Shown here: positions 10,737 to 40,471 of the stretch, one piece after another | Numbering within the stretch: the stretch's first letter is position 1 | Layout: each line of letters begins with the position of its first letter | From: Brachyhypopomus gauderio | Lineage: Eukaryota; Chordata; Actinopteri; Gymnotiformes; Hypopomidae | Direction: 5' to 3' | Length of the DNA: 64,000 nt | Assembly: GCF_052324685.1 (NCBI RefSeq) | Contig: NC_135226.1 | Location: 18,986,973 to 19,050,972, forward strand | Position numbers and translations under genes: made by a program | The notes under the pieces: model-generated | What the model was told of the DNA's origin: nothing | Database searches by the model: none | What the model saw: the letters and a program-made list of their open reading frames with translations, nothing else

Positions 10737-12842
10737 ATGGCCAGACCGCAGACGGACAGCAGGGTGGACGGACAGAGTCCCCAGAGCTGCAGGATGGAGG
10801 TTCTGCGTCGGGATGCCCGGCCCAACACGCAGCCTGTCCCGCAGGTGGCCCCGGCCCGGTCGAGACCGCGCCGTACCGCTCAGAGCACCCAGAGCACCGC
10901 GCCGGTACCGCTCGTCCCACCACCAGACGCGCCGTCCGCGGCCCCCCGGCAGGAAGACTCAGTCGGACACCGCGCAGGTACGCAGACCGTCGCCCACTGC
11001 TGGTGACAATGGCGTGCTTTCATTCAGCGTGCTTTAAAAACAGAACACGTTTTATTTAGCAGGGACAGTGTTGGCTGCTAGCGCGTTTGGCGAGCTTGGC
11101 CTGCTCTCCAGATTCTGCCCCCCCCCCCCCTTGCTCTCTGGCCAAAAGAGGCATGTTGAGACATGTCTGGTGCAGGCGACTTCATGCTGAACGCCACCTT
11201 CTCACCACAGTCACCCTGTACCACCACACTCAACACAGTCCCCTCTGTGTCTCAGTATCAGCAGTGATTTTGTTTTTCACTGTATCTCATCTCTTTTCAT
11301 CACTCCATCACCTCCTCCTCCGTAGCCTCGGTTGAACCCTCCTAGTATTTCTCTGTCCACGCCCCCCGTTTTTAAAAGCTCTTGGCTGCTTGCCTCCTCC
11401 CGGTCCCGCCCATCTCCGCGCTGTCCACCCTATCGCTGCCTGCCCTTCGTTCCTGTCCACCAATGGCTGAATTCCATCTCGGGCTGCGCCGGCTTACAGT
11501 TACCCTGGCAACAAGCCAGAGCAGCCCCGCTCTCCCCGGCCCTGTTAAGTCACCTCCTCCTACGGATCAGACCCGACCCGCACCCGTGCGCTTCCTGAGC
11601 TCGTGGAGCTATTTGTGCAGCCCGATCAAGTCAAGCAAGGATTTCTGAAACACCTGAGTCATAGTCTCTGTTTTGGCATTTCTAATCTATGTATTATCAG
11701 TGGCACAGGTCGCACCGGGGTCCATTTTGTGTACTGTGTTCTGTGCACTTGTTCAACCGCAAACTTTACTGCACGCGCGAAATTGCACGACATTACGTAA
11801 GCATATTTTACTGGTATCCTTCCAGCAGTCCTACAGTACCAGGGCCACTGAAGAGAATTCAGCACCATTAGATCAGTGTCTGAGAGGCAAACCCAACGAC
11901 CCGAGTGTTATTGACAGCAGAACCGGCAGAGAGTCCACACAGAGTGCAACACAAACCGCAAACGCACGCACTCTGGCCCCGCTAAGCAGATTAAGAGATT
12001 ACACGCAAACTTCGAAGGAGAATCTAGAAGCGTGTTGGCAGGGCTGTAGTGGGGAAGTGCCCCGTGTGTTTTACCCCGGGGTGGGGGTGGGGGGGGGGGG
12101 GGGGGTTACTTGGCGGACGTTTGAGGGTTTGCTTTCGAGCGGGAGCATGTGACTTTTTGCGGGTGGGGGATGGGTGGCCGCCCGAGCTGGCAGGCAGCTG
12201 CCATGGTAACGGCCCCCGCTAGACGGTCGGTCTGCTCCATCCCTGTGATTCGGGCGTTCGGTCAGGTCAGCGAGCCGAGTGTCCGGTCCCGCGGGTGTTC
12301 GGAGGTTTAGATGACGGTGGAGGTGCAGCCGGGTGTGTGTGGTGGCCGTGCAGGGGTCGCGAAGCGGCACGACCCACAAACAGCGTCCTGGCTGTATTCC
12401 CGCACCTGTCCCGTAACCGTGGGGGCGGCTCGACGCACCGGCATCCTTAACGACCCGCAGCGTCTGGCCAGATTCGGTCTGGAAATCATAACCTCTTCGC
12501 CTTTTTGAACTATGACCTTCGGATGGTGATGTCATCTCCCCTGCCTCCGCTCCAGGTCCCGAGGAGGAGCGGTCCTGTGTGGGCGGGATGCTCCAGCTCC
12601 TGCAGGACGTCTTGCCGGCCGAGGAACAGCCCACACCAGAGGAGCGCGCGGTGGCCCGCGTGGCCATCCAGCTGAGGACCATAGGAGATGAGATGAACGC
12701 AGTTTACCTACAGAGAAGGGTGAGGGCCTGTGTGTGTGGGGCGAACCGTAGTCACGCTACGCCGTGCGCTCGGGCCTGGGATGTGTGTGACTGGGCGGAA
12801 TGGGTGTGACCAGGCACGTGTTTTTGGAAATGTGTGTGTGAG

Positions 12843-13499: not shown

Positions 13500-16052
13500 C
13501 CTCAGATATTCACAAACACTCCCTCGCACACATAGCAGCACGGAGCGCGCCCCGGCAGGCACACGCGCGCGGACATGTCCCGGTGGACCGGCCCGTCTCC
13601 CACCTGCTTCCCCCTGTCTCGCACACGCACGTGCGCACGCCCACACCCCCCCCCCCCCTACCCCCCCCGGACGGTGCCCCAGCGAGGCGTGTGTGAGGCG
13701 GTCGGACGGGTCGTACTGCCGCAGCTGTTTGCAGAGCTGGGCGTAGCGTGGGCGTAGCGTGTCTGGTACCGCCATCCGTAGCCCCTTGCTGCACTCGGAA
13801 AGTATAGCGTGTGTTTCTAACCGCGCACGGGTGTTGTTTACTCTGGAACCAGCACAGGAATCGCAGGGACTTCCTCAAGCCGAGTGTGTGTGTGTGGTGT
13901 GTAACACGTGTGTGTGTGTGTGTGTGTAGGCGAGTACCCTTCCACTACAGCCACGTGAGCCCGGCAGAGCAGAACCTCCTCCGTTTGTTCTGTCCACTTC
14001 ACCACTGTTCAGTTCCTTCTCCCTCGCTCAACGCCCTCACTGTCTCATGCTCTCTGACACCATCCGGAGTCAAGAGTTCAACAAGTCCTTGTGACCGGTT
14101 CCCCTTTTCCCACTATCAGTAGTGAGCTTATGCACGGGGCCTGTGTCACGAGTGGGTCACTGTAGCCATTGTCTAACGTTATTTATAGACAATGTATGAC
14201 CAGTCACGTTTTGTTATATTGTTTGACAGGCAGCACACAGAAGCGACACGAGATTTTGTTGATCAGCGTATTTTTTTAAGACAGTATACGAAGAGGGAAG
14301 CGGCGTAGACGTGAGGGCACGTAAACGTGAGGGCACTAACGGCGGCGTAGACGTGAGGGCACGTAAACGTGAGGGCACTAACGGCGGCGTAGACGTGAGG
14401 GCACGTAGACGTGAGGGCACTAACGGCGGCGTAGACGTGAGGGCACGTAAACGTGAGGGCACTAACGGCGGCGTAGACGTGAGGGCACGTAAACGTGAGG
14501 GCACTAACGGCGGCGTAGACGTGAGGGCACGTAGACGTGAGGGCACTAACGGCGGCGTAGACGTGAGGGCACGTAGACGTGAGGGCACGTAGACGTGAGG
14601 GCACTAACGGCCGGTGACAGCAGTTTCCTGTAATGGTCGAGAAGACGGAGTTCATCCACGTCGAGGCGGTTCGGTGCCTGCGTCTGGTTGAGATGAGAGC
14701 GATCTCCAGCCAGTGGGGGTGGGGTGGCCTCAGGGTGGAGACGTGCGACAGCTCGGCTGGAGGTGATGGTTGGCGAGCGGCGACGGTGAGCCTTGGGGGG
14801 CGGTCATGTGACACTTGTGCGGGCGGGTGCGTTTTCCTGACTACGCCCTGATATCCCTACCTGCCCTAGATACTTGGTGGTGTTGTAGGTGTGTCGGGAC
14901 CCGCTCTGTGGCAGTTGGTCTGTCTGTCCTCTTGTTCTGTCTCCCCCACCCCCCCTCCACCCTCACCCCCACCCTCCCTGGCTGTAGAGTGTAGTTATTT
15001 TTAGATAATGACTCAGAGCAGCTGTTGAACGCTCTCCCGACTGTTGGGTAGACACTGACTGTCCGGGACAGCCTCACAAACGTGCGCACATTCTCAACGC
15101 CGTTGCTTGTGATGTTGTTAAGAAGTGGAGAATGTGTCTGCTGCTGTGTGAATGACACTAGGCACATTCCATTTGTGATGAGATGTTTGTTCCTCGAAGA
15201 CGCAGAGAAGAGAGCTTTGAGCGCGGGCGGACACACGCAGACATGCTGCTGGCTTTACAGCTAGCTCCTCATGCCGCGGTTAAGCACACGGTCGCATGCT
15301 CTGGTCTCGCCTGACGCTGGTCTTACCTGGCTCTGGTCTCGCCTGGCGCTGGTATTACCTGGCTCTGGTCTCGCCTGGCGCTGGTCTTACCAGGCTCTGG
15401 TCTCACCTGGTGCTGGTCTCACCTGGTGCTGGTCTCACATGGCACTGGTCTCACATGGCACTGGTCTCACATGGCACTGGTCTCACATCGCACTGGTCTC
15501 ACATAGCACTGGTCTCACCTAGTGCTGGTCTCACCTGGCACTGGTCTCACGTGGCACTGGTCTCACCTAGTGCTGGTCTCACCTGGCACTGGTCTCACAT
15601 GGCACTGGTCTCACTTCGCACTGGTCTCACGTGGCTCTGGTCTCACCTGGCGCTGGTCTCACGTGGCACTGGTCTCACCTGGCACTGGTCTCACGTGGCA
15701 CTGGTCTCACCTGGCACTGGTCTCACCTGGCACTGGTCTCACGTGGCACTGGTCTCACGTGGCTCTGGTCTCACCTAGTGCTGGTCTCACCTGGCACTGG
15801 TCTCACATGGTGCTGGTCTCACGTGGCGCTGGTCTCACCTGGCGCTGGTCTCACCAGTCTCACCTCGCACTGGTCTCACCTGGCTTCGGCCCAATACCAC
15901 CACTAGCCGTCCAATCGCTCACACCCGCCTTCTCTCTGCCTGTGTTTCAGAACGATGTGGCACAGTGGCAGAACTGGAGAGGCGTGTACCGCGGCCTGGT
16001 GGCCTTCCTCGCCGACACCATTAGCACCCTCTACCAGCACGGCCTCAGATGA
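10737..16052 (+). CDS. bbc3: BH3-only apoptosis protein PUMA, 3 coding exons
   Basis: PUMA binds anti-apoptotic BCL-2 proteins and activates BAX/BAK at mitochondria; in vertebrates it is a p53 target. Coding exons: 10737-10977, 12556-12719, 15951-16052, giving 168 residues. Exon 1 of the CDS is Pro/Arg/Ser-rich and disordered. Exon 2 ends with the BH3 helix, IQLRTIGDEMNAVYLQRR, with the conserved Leu at about 120, Gly 124 and Asp 125. The last exon encodes a Trp- and Leu-rich tail (QNWRGVYRGLVAFL) resembling the WRVLYNLIMGLL region of mammalian PUMA. Stop is TGA. Intron 2 (12720-15950) is packed with tandem repeats. The BH3 alone also resembles BIM; the adjacent sae1 and zc3h4, as in human, decide for bbc3. 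Confidence 0.88.
11149..11168 (+). promoter_or_regulatory. Candidate p53 response element in bbc3 intron
   Basis: Two adjacent decamers with no spacer, AGGCATGTTG and AGACATGTCT, match RRRCWWGYYY at 19 of 20 positions; the second is perfect and both have the strong CATG core. It lies 172 bp past the first coding exon of bbc3, a classic p53 target. Binding is inferred. Confidence 0.6.
12077..12107 (+). repeat. Poly-G tract, potential G-quadruplex
   Basis: Runs of five or more G interrupted by single T, ending in an uninterrupted G run of about 18. It lies in the first coding intron of bbc3. Quadruplex formation is inference from composition. Confidence 0.7.
12833..12935. repeat. (TG)n/(AG)n microsatellite
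   Basis: Compound microsatellite of TG and GA units in bbc3 intron 2. Confidence 0.9.
13045..13283. repeat. (CT)n-rich compound microsatellite
   Basis: Imperfect CT/TCTG repeats ending in an almost pure (CT)n run at 13242-13283. Long reading frames on both strands here are by-products of the two-base repeat. Confidence 0.9.
13459..13498. repeat. (CA)n microsatellite
   Basis: About 20 CA units in bbc3 intron 2. Confidence 0.9.
13571..13580 (+). promoter_or_regulatory. Perfect p53 half-site
   Basis: GGACATGTCC is a palindromic perfect match to the p53 half-site consensus. No second half-site adjoins it, so it is weaker evidence than the element at 11149. Confidence 0.3.
14301..14611. repeat. 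42-bp minisatellite, about 7 units
   Basis: Unit: two 16-bp near-copies of GTA[AG]ACGTGAGGGCAC followed by TAACGGCGGC. The unit length is a multiple of three, so several frames stay open across the array without being genes. It lies in bbc3 intron 2. Confidence 0.9.
15298..15886. repeat. 16-bp minisatellite, about 37 units
   Basis: Unit CTGGTCTCACNTGGCA with variants at the N and at TGGCA (TGGTG, TGGCG, TAGTG). It ends about 65 bp before the last bbc3 exon, close to its splice acceptor. Three units make 48 bp, so all plus-strand frames appear open. Confidence 0.92.
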
Positions 16053-33400: not shown

Positions 33401-36400
33401 TAGCTTAAGGTGGTGTGAATATTTTCAATACCACGTATGCTTTTGTATTTTACTTCTTAGCTTTATATTTAAGAGAAACATTTGTATGTACTGTTCCTCA
33501 GGGTGTTATCATGTAGGATATTGGACACTCCCAATGTGGCATAACCAAACTGGTACATTGCATCATTCAACACACAGACTAGATGGACAGACAGATCTTC
33601 GAACTATTACAAATCTGTGCCAATCTGGTGCAGCCCTGAAAGCTGAAGGAAAAGTTTCCAGTAGTATAGCTTTGCTACTTTTATTGGGTCTATACCTTTG
33701 CTGCAGTTGTATTTTCTACAGGTTTCCAGACTGCGAATCCCGTTTCAGGAATCTGAGACGTGCCCTCGTCAGTCTGGTCTTTGCATATTGTTCAGTAAAG
33801 CATTAAGTCCTTCTAGTCTTTGGAGAGAGGACCAGCATTTGTGGCTGTTAATGTGTGATGGCACTGCTCTGGATTCTCTACACTGTGAGATAAATAGGAC
33901 TTTTAGTAAACTAGTGTCACACAACTTTGTAGTAAATGTTTCACTCAGGGAAAATCCTGTTCTTGCGCAGTCAAAAGTCATCACATCAGGGTAGTCTGAG
34001 CCAACCCAATAACATCCTGTTAGCACAAGCTGACAAAATGCAAATTACAGTACGTGTCAGGTATGACAAAAAGGACCCTTAATCAGACCCTTAAACTAAC
34101 CGAAACATAATCATGTGTGCAAAACCACTTTAATACACTTATGTCCATGGTTCAGGTATCTGTTATTTCCTGGGACAGTGTTTAATATCTTATATGTGCT
34201 TTTTCCCTCTTCTTATAAGAGTTGTGCTTCAGTTTAGTGATTGTCCAGCTGTGTGTGTGTGTGCGTCTTCCAGGCGGGATGAAGAGGAGCTGGAAGAGGG
34301 TGAGCTGGAGGACGATGGAGGAGAGGTGGAGGTGCCCAGCGCTGAGGGTCCAGAGGTGGAGGAGAAGCCCCGGCGGAGCAAGGAGCGTCACGGCAGCGAC
34401 TCGGACGAGGACAAGAGCCACCGCCGCAAGAGGAAGAGGAGGAGGGAGCGTGAGCGGGAGAAGGAGAAACGGAGGTCCAAAAAGAGGCGCAAATCGAAAC
34501 ACAAGGTATTGAGCCGGGTGGCTGGTGCGCCACGCGTTGGAGTAGGTCCGCTGTGTATGTGTGTGTGTGTCGGTCTGCAGCGTTGTTAAAGTCTGTTTTG
34601 TGTGTGTTACAGCGGCATGCCTCGTCCAGCGATGATCATTCGGACTTCAGCGACGACTCGGACTACAGTCCCAGTGAGAAGAGGAAATACCGTGAATACA
34701 GCCCTCAGTACCCACCCTCAGTGAGTCAACTACTTTGCTTATTTTTAATTTTTTTACTAATGTAATCCCCTTAATTGTTTAAAATTTTCCTGTCAAGTCG
34801 TCGTAGATGTCAAAGCAGCGGAAGCCTCTTCTTTCCAGTTGGCTGGGGCCTTGACGGTGATCTTTGTGTTTCAGTCTCACGGAGGCTACCCCCCTCCTCC
34901 CCCTCCTCCCCCTCCCGGCCATGGGGGTCCCCTGCCGAAGAAGGGCAACTACATGAAGATGGACAAACAGGGCTACGGCTACGACGAGTACGATGAAGAC
35001 AACTACGAGGGCGAGGAGGACGAGGACATGGTCGAAGACGACTACGACGACTTCGCCAAGGAGCTTAACCAGTACCGCAAGGCCAAAGAGGGTGGTGGAG
35101 GTGGTGGAGGGCCACCGGGCGGCCAGCGTGGCAGAGGTAACCATCCGCCCTCCTGGAAAGACACGAATGCCTCTCGCGTGCCATCCAGAGGACGAGCTCC
35201 TGTGGGTAAAGCGGGCGGTTTTGAGTGCTGATTGTTTTGACGTTAAACCCCCCCCCCCCCCCTCCACAGGTGGTAAAGGGCGAATGAAGAACCAGAGGGG
35301 GCGTGGCAGAGGAGGCATGAGGGGTCGTGGAGGTCGAGGAGGAAACAGAGGAAGAGGACGAGGGAAGATGGGAGTAGAGAACGATGAAGGAGATGGCATG
35401 TACGGAGATGATATGGAGGTTGGTTCCAGCTCGCCAATTAACATGTTTACAGATGACCGACTTAGGCTGTTTTTATTCTTACTTTGATAAGTTCACAAAT
35501 TTCGAGGTTTTTGAAATTTGCAATTGTACTTCACAGTATGGTGAGGATGACTATGACAACATGGGGGATGATGATTATGATGATTACTCAAAAGAACTTA
35601 ACCAGTATAGGAAATCCAAGGACCGAGGGCGTGGTGAGCTTTAAAAATTAATTTCCGAACAGTAAGTTGCTGAATTGGTTCTAGAGAGCATGTTTATTCA
35701 AAGTCTCTTGTCTATTTGTAGGTGGTAAAGGAGGGCGGGGTCGTGGGCGGGGCAAAGGAGGGAGAGGCATGAACCGGGGCAGAGGGAGGAATCGAGGGAG
35801 GGGCCGCGGAGGAGACCAATGCCACGACGAAGACAATAACGGTGATATGGACGCGACGGTAAGAACCAGAATTGGTCCACAGTACATTAAAGCAGATGCA
35901 CTCGACTGCATAGTTCAGTAAATGTTTGTGGGAACATTTGAATGCCATTTCAACTTGGAAACTGAGACAGCTTTCTGAGTTTGTAAGCCGTTCCTGCTCT
36001 TTTTGAGATTAGATAATGTTATCCTGGCTGCCTGGCTTGTGTATGTTGAGGGCAGTGCGTGAACAGCAGGGCAGCTGTTTAAAGTCCAGTGTGGCAGCAG
36101 TTAAAAGTCCAGTGTGGCAGCAGTTAAATTCGTGTGGCAGCTGTTAAAGTCCAGTGTGGCAGCTGTTGCTCTAGTCCATCCACCTTTCAGAACAGCAGGT
36201 GATGAGTCGGTCTCCCTGTGTGTTGTGTAGGATGGGTGTGGCGGCCAGAGGAAACACGACCAGGATAAGCACGGCCAGGACAAGAAGGGCAAAGCCATCT
36301 GCAAGTACTACATCGAGGGCCGCTGCACATGGGTAAGGATTCAGACACACTGCGCGTCATTTTATCGTCGTTTTTAAATTCATTATGCAGGGGCTTTGTT

Positions 36401-39400
36401 GGCAAATAATGGTTTCTTTCTACTCTAATATAGGTCAGTGTATTAAATGAGATCAATTAGACTAATCCCCAATAATGAGTGTTTACCAGTGATGCTAACT
36501 ACTGTGGTTATTGTTGCCTGTGATCAACAGGGCGAGCACTGTAACTTCAGCCACGACATCGAGCTGCCCAAGAAGAAAGAACTGTGCAAGTTTTACATCA
36601 CTGGCTTCTGTGCCCGGGCGGAGAACTGCCCCTACATGCATGATATCCTGCCCTGTTTGGTTTTCATTCACCATTTCACTCACTCATTATGAACTGTACC
36701 ATTTGCTAGTAGACTAACCAAAATCGTTGATATAGTGATGAAACAAAAAAATGTCGTAAGTTGCTCTTGTGGTTCTGGTCTCAGTAGCTGACCCTCAGAT
36801 TGGTGTAGAATATTCCTTGACTCGACAGCACGGGACTTCCCATGCAAGCTGTTCCACACCACAGGCAACTGTGTGAACGGAGACGACTGCATGTTCTCCC
36901 ACGAGCCTCTCACAGACGACACAAAAGAACTCCTGGACAAGGTGAGGCGCCCCCTCTGGTGGCGAACGTGCGTCGCGTGTGTCGCCCTCGTTCCTCGTGT
37001 CTGCCCCCTTCCCCATGCTGAGTGCTTCCCTGTTTTTGTAGATGCTCGCTGAGGACGCGGAGGCTGGTGCCGAGGACGAGAAGGAAGTGGAGGAGCTGAA
37101 AAAGCAGGGCATCAATCCCTTACCCAAACCCCCGCCTGGGGTGGGCCTCCTCCCCACGCCGCCTAGACCAGGCCCCCCTGATTCCTCTACCCCCATGGAC
37201 TTTGGCATGACCGGGCCCCCGCCACCGGGCAGCATGCCCCCTAACGGGCCTCTGTGTCCCGGCTCTGGACCTCCACCCGGGCCCGGGCCTGGACCAGGAC
37301 CGGGACCGGGACCCTGCCCTGGACCTCCAGCACCTTGCCCAGATGGAGGGTCCTTCCAGGGATCTCCAAACCCCAACGGTCCACCTCCACAAGCCCTGGG
37401 TCCTCCACCTCCCTGTGGGGGCAACATGGGCAAGAAGATCCCGTCCCTGTTTGAGATTGTGGTGAAACCCACCGGACAGCTGGCACAGAAGTTGGGTGTC
37501 AGGTAGGTCCTCGCTCCTTTCTTACGGCCTTGGGCCAGTTGCACGTTTCGTCGTCTTTTTCGTGACCTGTACATACGTGGTTTGTAAATTCCTGCTGGTC
37601 GACACTTTTAGAAAATGACCTACCACTCAAATTTGTTGTCTATGCAGATGTCCGAACACTGGAGCTGCTGCAGCAGGCACTGCAGGACCCTCGGGTCCCC
37701 CCCCAGGACCACCTGGTGCCCCTCATTTCCCTGGTCCAGTGCCACCTGGACACATGGGGCCCAATGGACCTCATGACATGCCACCCATGGGTTCACCGAA
37801 CATGAACCAGGGGCCCCCGACAATGATGCCGAACTTTGGCCCAGGAGAGGGGCCTCCCAACCCGCCCATGATGCCCCCGGGCACTGGCCCCGGTCGCAAT
37901 TTTTACGACAATTTCTACCAGCAGCAGCAAAGCGTCGGAAAGGAAGGGGGAGGCCCAGAGGGTGAGCTGATCTTCTGGGGGATAGCCGTGCAGACAACCG
38001 CACCATTGCTTATTCCAAATTGACTGTACCGCTAAGTGTTGCATTGTGCAAACTGGGGTGTTTAATTGATGAGTCTTACTGTGTACATTTCTTCAGTATT
38101 TGATGTTTACTTTCTGCCTCTGGTCATAGGTGAACTACAAGGCTACAAGGCAGCTAGTGGAAACTTTAGTGATCAGTCCTCAGGGAACCAGAGCTCTGGG
38201 AACATGGAGGGCCCGGCCAATGGGGGCTCGGCGAACCAGTCTGGGATAACGGTCCCAGACTTCCTGCCCCCAGCTCAACGTGTGCTGTTCATGAGGATAC
38301 AACAGAAGCAGCAGGAAGAGGAGGAGCGAGCCAGGAGACTTGCCGAAGGAGGCACAGAGAGGGATAACGAAGGTACAGCCAACCCACGTCAGGTCCCACC
38401 ACAATGCAAAATACTACGCAGATATGTCAAACCTCCCTCAAACGCCGTTAAAGCAGCGCTGGTGTTGTAGACTGAAAAAGTGCATAACAAAAGTATGCAG
38501 CAACGTACGTGTCTCCCTAAAATGTTTCAGTTGCCCAAAGGGTGTTAATTTCGTCACATTTAATCAAAGATTTTCCCTCTTAAGCCTGTTTGAGGCATGC
38601 GTGTTGAAGTGGAGTTGGCTTATTATTGGTGCTTTCTGATCCTCACACATACTTTTAACGTTTACCTATGGTCCACATTGTTATTATACATGTGATTAAC
38701 AAAAAAACTGGTATATACACAAAAATACGTTTTTTGATTTAGTTTTGAAGAGGCTGCTCTTGGTCAGGAAGCCCTTGCAGCTGCTGCCTCTGTTTTAGAT
38801 GGACAGCCTTAAATTGGATCTTCAAATTCTTATTAAGCGTTCTGTTGCCTCTTTTGTATTCCAGGTGATTCTGCAAATTGGTATTCCAGTGAAGATGAGG
38901 ATGGTGGTGGCAGCGTCACATCGATCCTGAAAACCTTACGGCAGCAGAGTCAAACGCAGGGTCCCCTGAAGGCCGAGAGTGCCCCCAGTGACCCTCGGCT
39001 GCAGAAGGCCTCGCCGGCCCAGACGCCCAGCAGGCCTGCGGACCCCAGACTGGCACGTGACCCTCGACTGGCGCGTGCCACAGACTCCTCTCAGACCCCC
39101 GAGCACAACCCCTCTTCCTCGCCCTCCCCATCCGCCCCCGCCGACCCCCGCCTCGCCCGGCAGGCCGCCGCGCCCCCCAAACCTGAGCCTCCGCTTGTGT
39201 ACAAGCCCCCCCCTCTGGTCTCGGCCCCTACTGAGGAAGAGGAGGGGGAGAGGATGCTGAGGGACAAGCCTGTGCCCATCCCTCTGGATCCGCTGATGGG
39301 CATGGCCCTCCGTGACCCCCGCTCTCAGCTCCAGCAGTTCAGTCACATCAAGAAGGACGTGGTGCTGAGCAAGCCTTCCTTCGCCAAGGTGGTGTTGTGG

Positions 39401-40471
39401 AGTCCCGAAGACCTCATCCCCGTCCCCATCCCCAAGCAGGACTTCCTCCCGCTGCCGCCCGGCATCCCGCCGGTCGCCTCCATAGACCCGCGGCTGTCGC
39501 GTGCCCAGCAGCAGATCCACACGGCCATGCCCACCGCCATGCCTGCCTCGGCCCCGCCCCCCGAGCAGACCGGCCAATCCTCCTCATCCTCCTCCTCCCT
39601 CCCGGACTTTGAGCTGCTCTCTCGTATCCTCAAGACCGTTAATGCCACCTCGTCGGGCCCCGCTCAGTCCACGCCGGCGCCAGCTCTCCCCGCATCCGTC
39701 CCCGCCGAGAAGCCTGCGGACCCCCGCGTGACCCGCAAGGCCGCGGCTGACCCGCGGCTTCAGCCGCAGAAATCCGCCATGAAACCCTCGGAACCTCCGG
39801 CTCTGCCGGTTTCGGCGTCGGCGCCCGGCCCCCCTGCTCCGCCCCCTCCGGCGCCCACGATCGCGCCCTACGACCCGCGGCTGCTTTCGGCAGGAGGGGC
39901 CGGTCGAGGCGTGGGGGGCGGCAGCGCCGGTGCCAGCAGTAGTGTTCTGAGCAGCATCAGCCTGTACGACCCGCGCACACAAGGCTCGGACAAACCGGAA
40001 AGCTCGGAGGCCTCCGCCCCGCCCGCCGAGCCCAAACCCACGGACGCTGCCTCCGCCCCGGCCAAACCCAAAACAAAGGAGCCGCTGTTCGTCCGTAAGT
40101 CCGCGCTGGATCAGCCTGAGCCGGAAAAGGGCACCGGCGATCAGACCACGGACCGATACAACAGCTACAACCGGCCTCGACCCAAGCCCTCGCCGTCCCC
40201 CGGCGTGGCCGCCTCCGGAGCCCCCACGCCCGGCCCGCCCTCCCAGTCTGGCCAGGGCGGCTCCGTCTCTGCGGAACAGCCGGCGGGTGTCCACAACCTC
40301 CCCGTGTCCACGCTCTTCAGCGTGGTCAAGCAGGCCGGCAAGCCCGGCGGCACGGGCAGCCCGTTTGGCGGCAGCAGCCCCGCCCAGCCGGACGCAGCCG
40401 AGCAGGACAGTGCCTCGCTCAAGGACGTTTTCAAAGGCTTCGACCCCACCGCCTCCCCCTTCTGTCAGTGA
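30421..40471 (+). CDS. zc3h4: CCCH zinc finger protein ZC3H4, 14 exons
   Basis: ZC3H4 acts in the nucleus with WDR82 to stop unproductive non-coding transcription. Exons: 30421-30500, 34274-34505, 34613-34720, 34875-35136, 35270-35418, 35537-35633, 35722-35858, 36231-36332, 36531-36642, 36832-36941, 37042-37502, 37648-37961, 38130-38372, 38865-40471; 1337 residues (human 1303). Order: acidic LEEGELEDD; Lys/Arg-rich segment; two copies of a KELNQYRK-type element each followed by RGRG repeats; three CCCH fingers at about 379-397 (CX7CX5CX3H), 408-426 (same) and 431-450 (CX8CX5CX3H); Pro/Gly/Met-rich middle; a Glu-rich coiled stretch; a tail with about ten DPR motifs ending DPTASPFCQ. Intron 9 is a U12-type AT-AC intron. 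Intron 1 is 3.8 kb. Confidence 0.96.
36068..36170. repeat. About 25-bp tandem repeat in zc3h4 intron 7
   Basis: Four to five imperfect copies of GGCAGC[AT]GTTAAAGTCCAGT, shortly before exon 8. Confidence 0.75.
36643..36831 (+). other. U12-type AT-AC intron of zc3h4
   Basis: The intron begins ATATCCTG and ends CAGCAC. A branch-point match TTCCTTGAC lies at 36813-36821, putting the branch adenosine (36820) 11 bases from the intron end. These are the three hallmarks of the minor spliceosome. Only this AT-AC joint gives the expected His-Gly-Asp-Phe-Pro reading; no usable GT donor is present at the exon edge. Confidence 0.9.

Follow-up and report, generated by a model that had tools for sequence, protein, structure and literature searches.

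Introns with U12-type signals are taken by the minor spliceosome, in which U12 pairs with the branch-site motif. Introns with AT-AC borders make up ~22% (PMC6717393) or ~26% (PMC10639083) of the human minor introns, and the donor is described in a review as being read by U11-48K and U11 snRNA (PMC3584512). Zebrafish have 662 minor introns in 612 genes; in zrsr2 mutants the retained ones are shorter (median 451 vs 1398 bp) and 444 of the 662 are not retained (PMC9501576). AT-AC ends by themselves do not settle which spliceosome acts, and sodium channel genes have U2-type AT-AC introns with G at +5 (PMC2831892).

Here we describe an intron of zc3h4 in a stretch of DNA of 64,000 nucleotides (the window), which, judged by its signals, we consider with a probability of roughly 0.95 to belong genuinely to the U12-type (minor) class with AT-AC ends and to be excised by the minor spliceosome. 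The features on which the argument draws are as follows.

34274..40471, + strand: zc3h4, 13 exons resolved, 11 of 12 introns GT-AG, 5′ coding exon(s) not found
36531..36642, + strand: exon 8 (partial model), which encodes the latter half of CCCH finger 1 and all of finger 2 and has CAT G as its last bases
36643..36831, + strand: probable U12-type AT-AC intron, phase 1, 189 nt, assigned from motifs and junction enumeration
36643..36650, + strand: 5′ splice site ATATCCTG, 7/8 to RTATCCTT
36690..36692, + strand: TGA that would be reached on intron retention, 249 nt upstream of the exon 9/10 junction
36813..36821, + strand: branch-site motif TTCCTTGAC, predicted branch A 36820, at 11 nt from the final base of the intron
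36830..36831, + strand: AC 3′ splice site, with an AG at 36827-36828 sitting 3 nt upstream
36832..36941, + strand: exon 9, carrying the GDFP linker and the third CCCH finger (Pfam zf-CCCH_9, KIAA1064-like)

The joined zc3h4 frame runs for 1310 residues with no internal stop, encodes three CCCH motifs and reaches a natural stop at 40471. Its three CCCH fingers, the third of them KIAA1064-like, place the protein in ZC3H4: finger 3 matches the Pfam family “KIAA1064-like, CCCH zinc finger” (zf-CCCH_9) at 1.4e-31, and the human KIAA1064 chain 2cqe_A aligns over 88 residues (E 8e-55), so that the gene identity given in the original prediction is borne out. We take KIAA1064 (PDB 2cqe_A) to be an alias of human ZC3H4. 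A narrow scan of 28.6-34.25 kb for a 5′ coding exon, limited to exons of 8 codons or more that start with ATG and whose final G precedes a good phase-2 GT donor, found none. Elsewhere in the gene, exons 34875-35136 and 35537-35633 encode a similar segment, which looks like an internal duplication, and the GT-AG intron before exon 7 (36070-36173) holds short imperfect direct repeats with a spacing of 20-23 nt, e.g., TTAAAGTCCAGTGTGGCAGCAGTT.

The AT-AC intron opens with ATATCCTG and its last bases are ...TTCCTTGACTCGACAGCAC. The one donor mismatch is at +8, where G stands instead of T; this departure from ATATCCTT we count against a U12-type reading. The branch-site motif agrees with TTCCTTRAC at all nine positions, and the predicted branch A is 11 nt away from the final base of the intron (10 counting from the last motif base), a spacing that lies within the optimum of 11-13 nt given in a published review (PMC3584512) and is thus counted in favor of U12-type splicing. 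Set against the other introns of the gene, this one stands apart: among the 12 compared it has the best U12 donor match (7/8, the next best being 6) and the best branch motif match (9/9, the next best being 7), and its match to the U2 donor is the poorest (4/9, against 6 to 8 of 9 in the 11 GT-AG introns). It is the only one of the 12 resolved introns with U12-type signals. A crude pyrimidine score upstream of its 3′ end is 0.62, a value shared by three GT-AG introns of zc3h4, so that the tract criterion does not tell the two classes apart in this gene. The borders, the donor and a branch point 11 bases from the AC had all been called in the original prediction, as had the class of the intron, and the motif matches, the coordinates and the comparison with the 11 GT-AG introns uphold these calls. 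The zc3h4 intron shares with vertebrate U12-type AT-AC introns (U12DB, MIDB, intronIC) its terminal dinucleotides, its extended donor, its branch-site motif at a similar distance from the end, and a phase other than zero; it shows no difference in kind, with G at donor +8. Like minor-intron genes that are mis-spliced on loss of the minor spliceosome (in zrsr2 zebrafish, or on inhibition of U12, U4atac or U6atac), zc3h4 has a short minor intron between GT-AG introns. Given that AT-AC ends are shared by both classes, a U2-type AT-AC intron of the sodium-channel kind has to be weighed as well. The G at +5 expected of such an intron is replaced here by C, and the ATATCCT donor is accompanied by a full TTCCTTGAC at 11 nt, which makes a U2-type AT-AC intron exceedingly improbable.

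The position of the joint can be read from the protein. We enumerated junctions whose 5′ exon ends fall within 36600-36759 and whose 3′ exon starts lie no further than 36869, allowing any dinucleotides and introns of 29 nt or more. Among the junctions enumerated, MHGDFPCKLF is restored by one alone, the AT-AC junction 36642/36832, as had been claimed for His-Gly-Asp-Phe-Pro. Human KIAA1064 chain 2cqe_A reads YMHGDFPCKLYH across the joint, and the solved human fragment has ENCPYMHGDFPCKLYHTTGNC at the same place, HGDFP included; in this protein-level comparison the HGDFP joint and fingers 2 and 3 are alike in human ZC3H4 over the aligned fragment. The CAT G that ends exon 8 is the last ligand His of finger 2 and the first base of the Gly codon. 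The number of ~426 given for this His in the original prediction is not confirmed by the partial model, which is without the 5′ coding exon(s) and has it as residue 399. In the joined 13-exon model the intron lies directly after this ligand, where it had been predicted to lie, and the junction completes the Gly codon.

An ordinary U2-type intron with other borders was weighed as well. With 29 GT-AG or GC-AG pairs the reading frame continues unbroken into finger 3 or to its end, among them GT 36655 to AG 36828, which would give MHDILPSRDFP; yet HGDFP, present in the solved human protein, comes from none of the 29. At 36655 the GT agrees with the consensus for U2 donors in just 4 of 9 positions, and the best U2 donor in the stretch (GTAAGT at 36756, 6/9) sits past the in-frame TGA. 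We therefore hold such borders to be very unlikely. Two further arrangements were considered and rejected. For a twintron, the GT donors within 36600-36831 share between 3 and 6 of 9 positions with the U2 consensus and the best of them, that at 36756, falls beyond the stop. Use of the tandem AG at 36827-36828, 8 nt from the branch A, would give HARDFP rather than HGDFP, and AT-AG pairs are disfavoured according to a review (PMC3584512).

How often the two signals would meet by chance was estimated with a first-order Markov model of the window and 60 simulated strands. Under this model 3.3 ATATCCT and 0.85 TTCCTTRAC are expected per 64-kb strand, and coupled ATATCCT and TTCCTTRAC pairs occurred in 0 of the 60 simulated strands. 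ATATCCT itself is not rare, with 11 occurrences on both strands of the window; TTCCTTRAC occurs once on both strands, exactly at the branch site of the zc3h4 intron. An assembly error or a pseudogene could mask a normal GT-AG border, and one genome copy alone was examined; however, the 13 exons are open in frame, the three CCCH motifs are all intact and the frame closes at a natural stop, and an error would require two separate U12 signals both to have arisen by error, so that we give this explanation very little weight. Chance, assembly error and a U2-type AT-AC intron are all poor explanations for what is found in zc3h4. A second donor-like site in the window (GTATCCTT with ATCCTTAAC, 11814-12460, + strand, with an AG ending 10 nt past the branch A) lies upstream of a BH3-like exon, bbc3-like by eye, with no coding sequence seen to join; this pairing is probably due to chance. 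A search of the 64-kb window against Rfam gave 0 matches at the gathering score. The joined finger region gave 184 and 58 pattern matches in prokaryote and viral contig collections, respectively, with 0 confirmed, as expected of such collections.

On the reading as a minor intron, the U11/U12 di-snRNP would read ATATCC at the donor and U12 would pair with UUCCUUGAC. By the rules of U12 pairing, the G that occupies motif position 7 points to the A at 36820 as the likely branch nucleotide; this A would be bulged, and the AC 11 nt downstream would serve as the 3′ splice site. Once the intron is removed, the Gly codon joining finger 2 to the DFP linker would be complete and the conserved three-finger array would result. 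Dependence of zc3h4 on U11/U12 would follow from the class of its signals.

If the intron is spliced in this way, production of ZC3H4 depends on the minor spliceosome, and failed minor splicing would be expected to cause loss of full-length ZC3H4. Computed retention of the intron adds 16 residues after the finger-2 His before the stop at 36690, in agreement with the earlier statement that the frame runs into the intron and stops. Nonsense-mediated decay of the retained transcript is a fair guess, because this stop lies 249 nt before the exon 9/10 junction. Loss of exon 8 alone (112 nt) or of exon 9 alone (110 nt) is computed to shift the frame, and skipping both together to keep it (222 nt, 74 codons); finger 1 would then retain 11 of its 19 residues and lack its last two ligands, and fingers 2 and 3 would be gone. 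One study reports that, on minor-spliceosome inhibition, some genes more often skip one or both of the exons that flank the minor intron, and the skipped isoforms are there said to hold a premature stop and to escape decay (PMC8034651); in contrast to those isoforms, the zc3h4 double skip is predicted to be in frame. One could speculate that transcription restriction is switched through the minor intron, such that with less minor-spliceosome activity U2 splicing would connect exons 7 and 10 in frame and give a ZC3H4 lacking half of finger 1 (its second half) as well as the whole of fingers 2 and 3, possibly a dominant-negative or RNA-blind restrictor rather than a mere loss of protein. We regard this switch as improbable, and count against it that alternative splicing of U12-type introns is described as almost entirely absent in a 2012 review (PMC3584512). 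ZC3H4 is a component of Restrictor with WDR82 and is said to regulate non-coding transcription (PMC12604806). If the dependence is true, lost or shortened ZC3H4 could cause part of the disorder that follows minor-spliceosome loss.

U12-type introns are a well-known, ordinary class, and the zc3h4 case may be new or already catalogued. Open full text yielded no link of zc3h4 to minor introns or U12-type splicing, the gene lists sitting in supplements and subscription papers, and this silence does not establish novelty. For zc3h6 and minor introns, open full text likewise held no paper that we found; for zc3h8 it held one eCLIP paper, which mentions the gene and minor introns in unrelated places. 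Of some interest would be the predicted dependence of ZC3H4 on minor splicing. Standard gene finders had been expected to mis-splice the AT-AC intron; pipelines that draw on RNA-seq or on aligned proteins may well get its annotation right.

The gene order around zc3h4 was read by eye from open reading frame translations over positions 1-64000, with putative gene names. Together with the intron size, this order suggests that the DNA may be that of a fish. Before zc3h4 lie what we take to be a rad1-like gene at ~0.9 kb, a bbc3-like gene from ~12.5 kb and sae1 (minus strand) at ~28.4 kb; after it come, presumably, a cdc42ep-like gene at 48.4 kb, ercc2 at ~52-56 kb and a kinesin light chain gene (minus strand) at ~61-63.5 kb. 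Part of this order resembles human 19q13.32. Minisatellite-like arrays, visible as repeats in the translations, occupy 14263-14600 and 15284-15906, with units VDVRARKREGTNGG and HWSHLALVSPGTGLTW.
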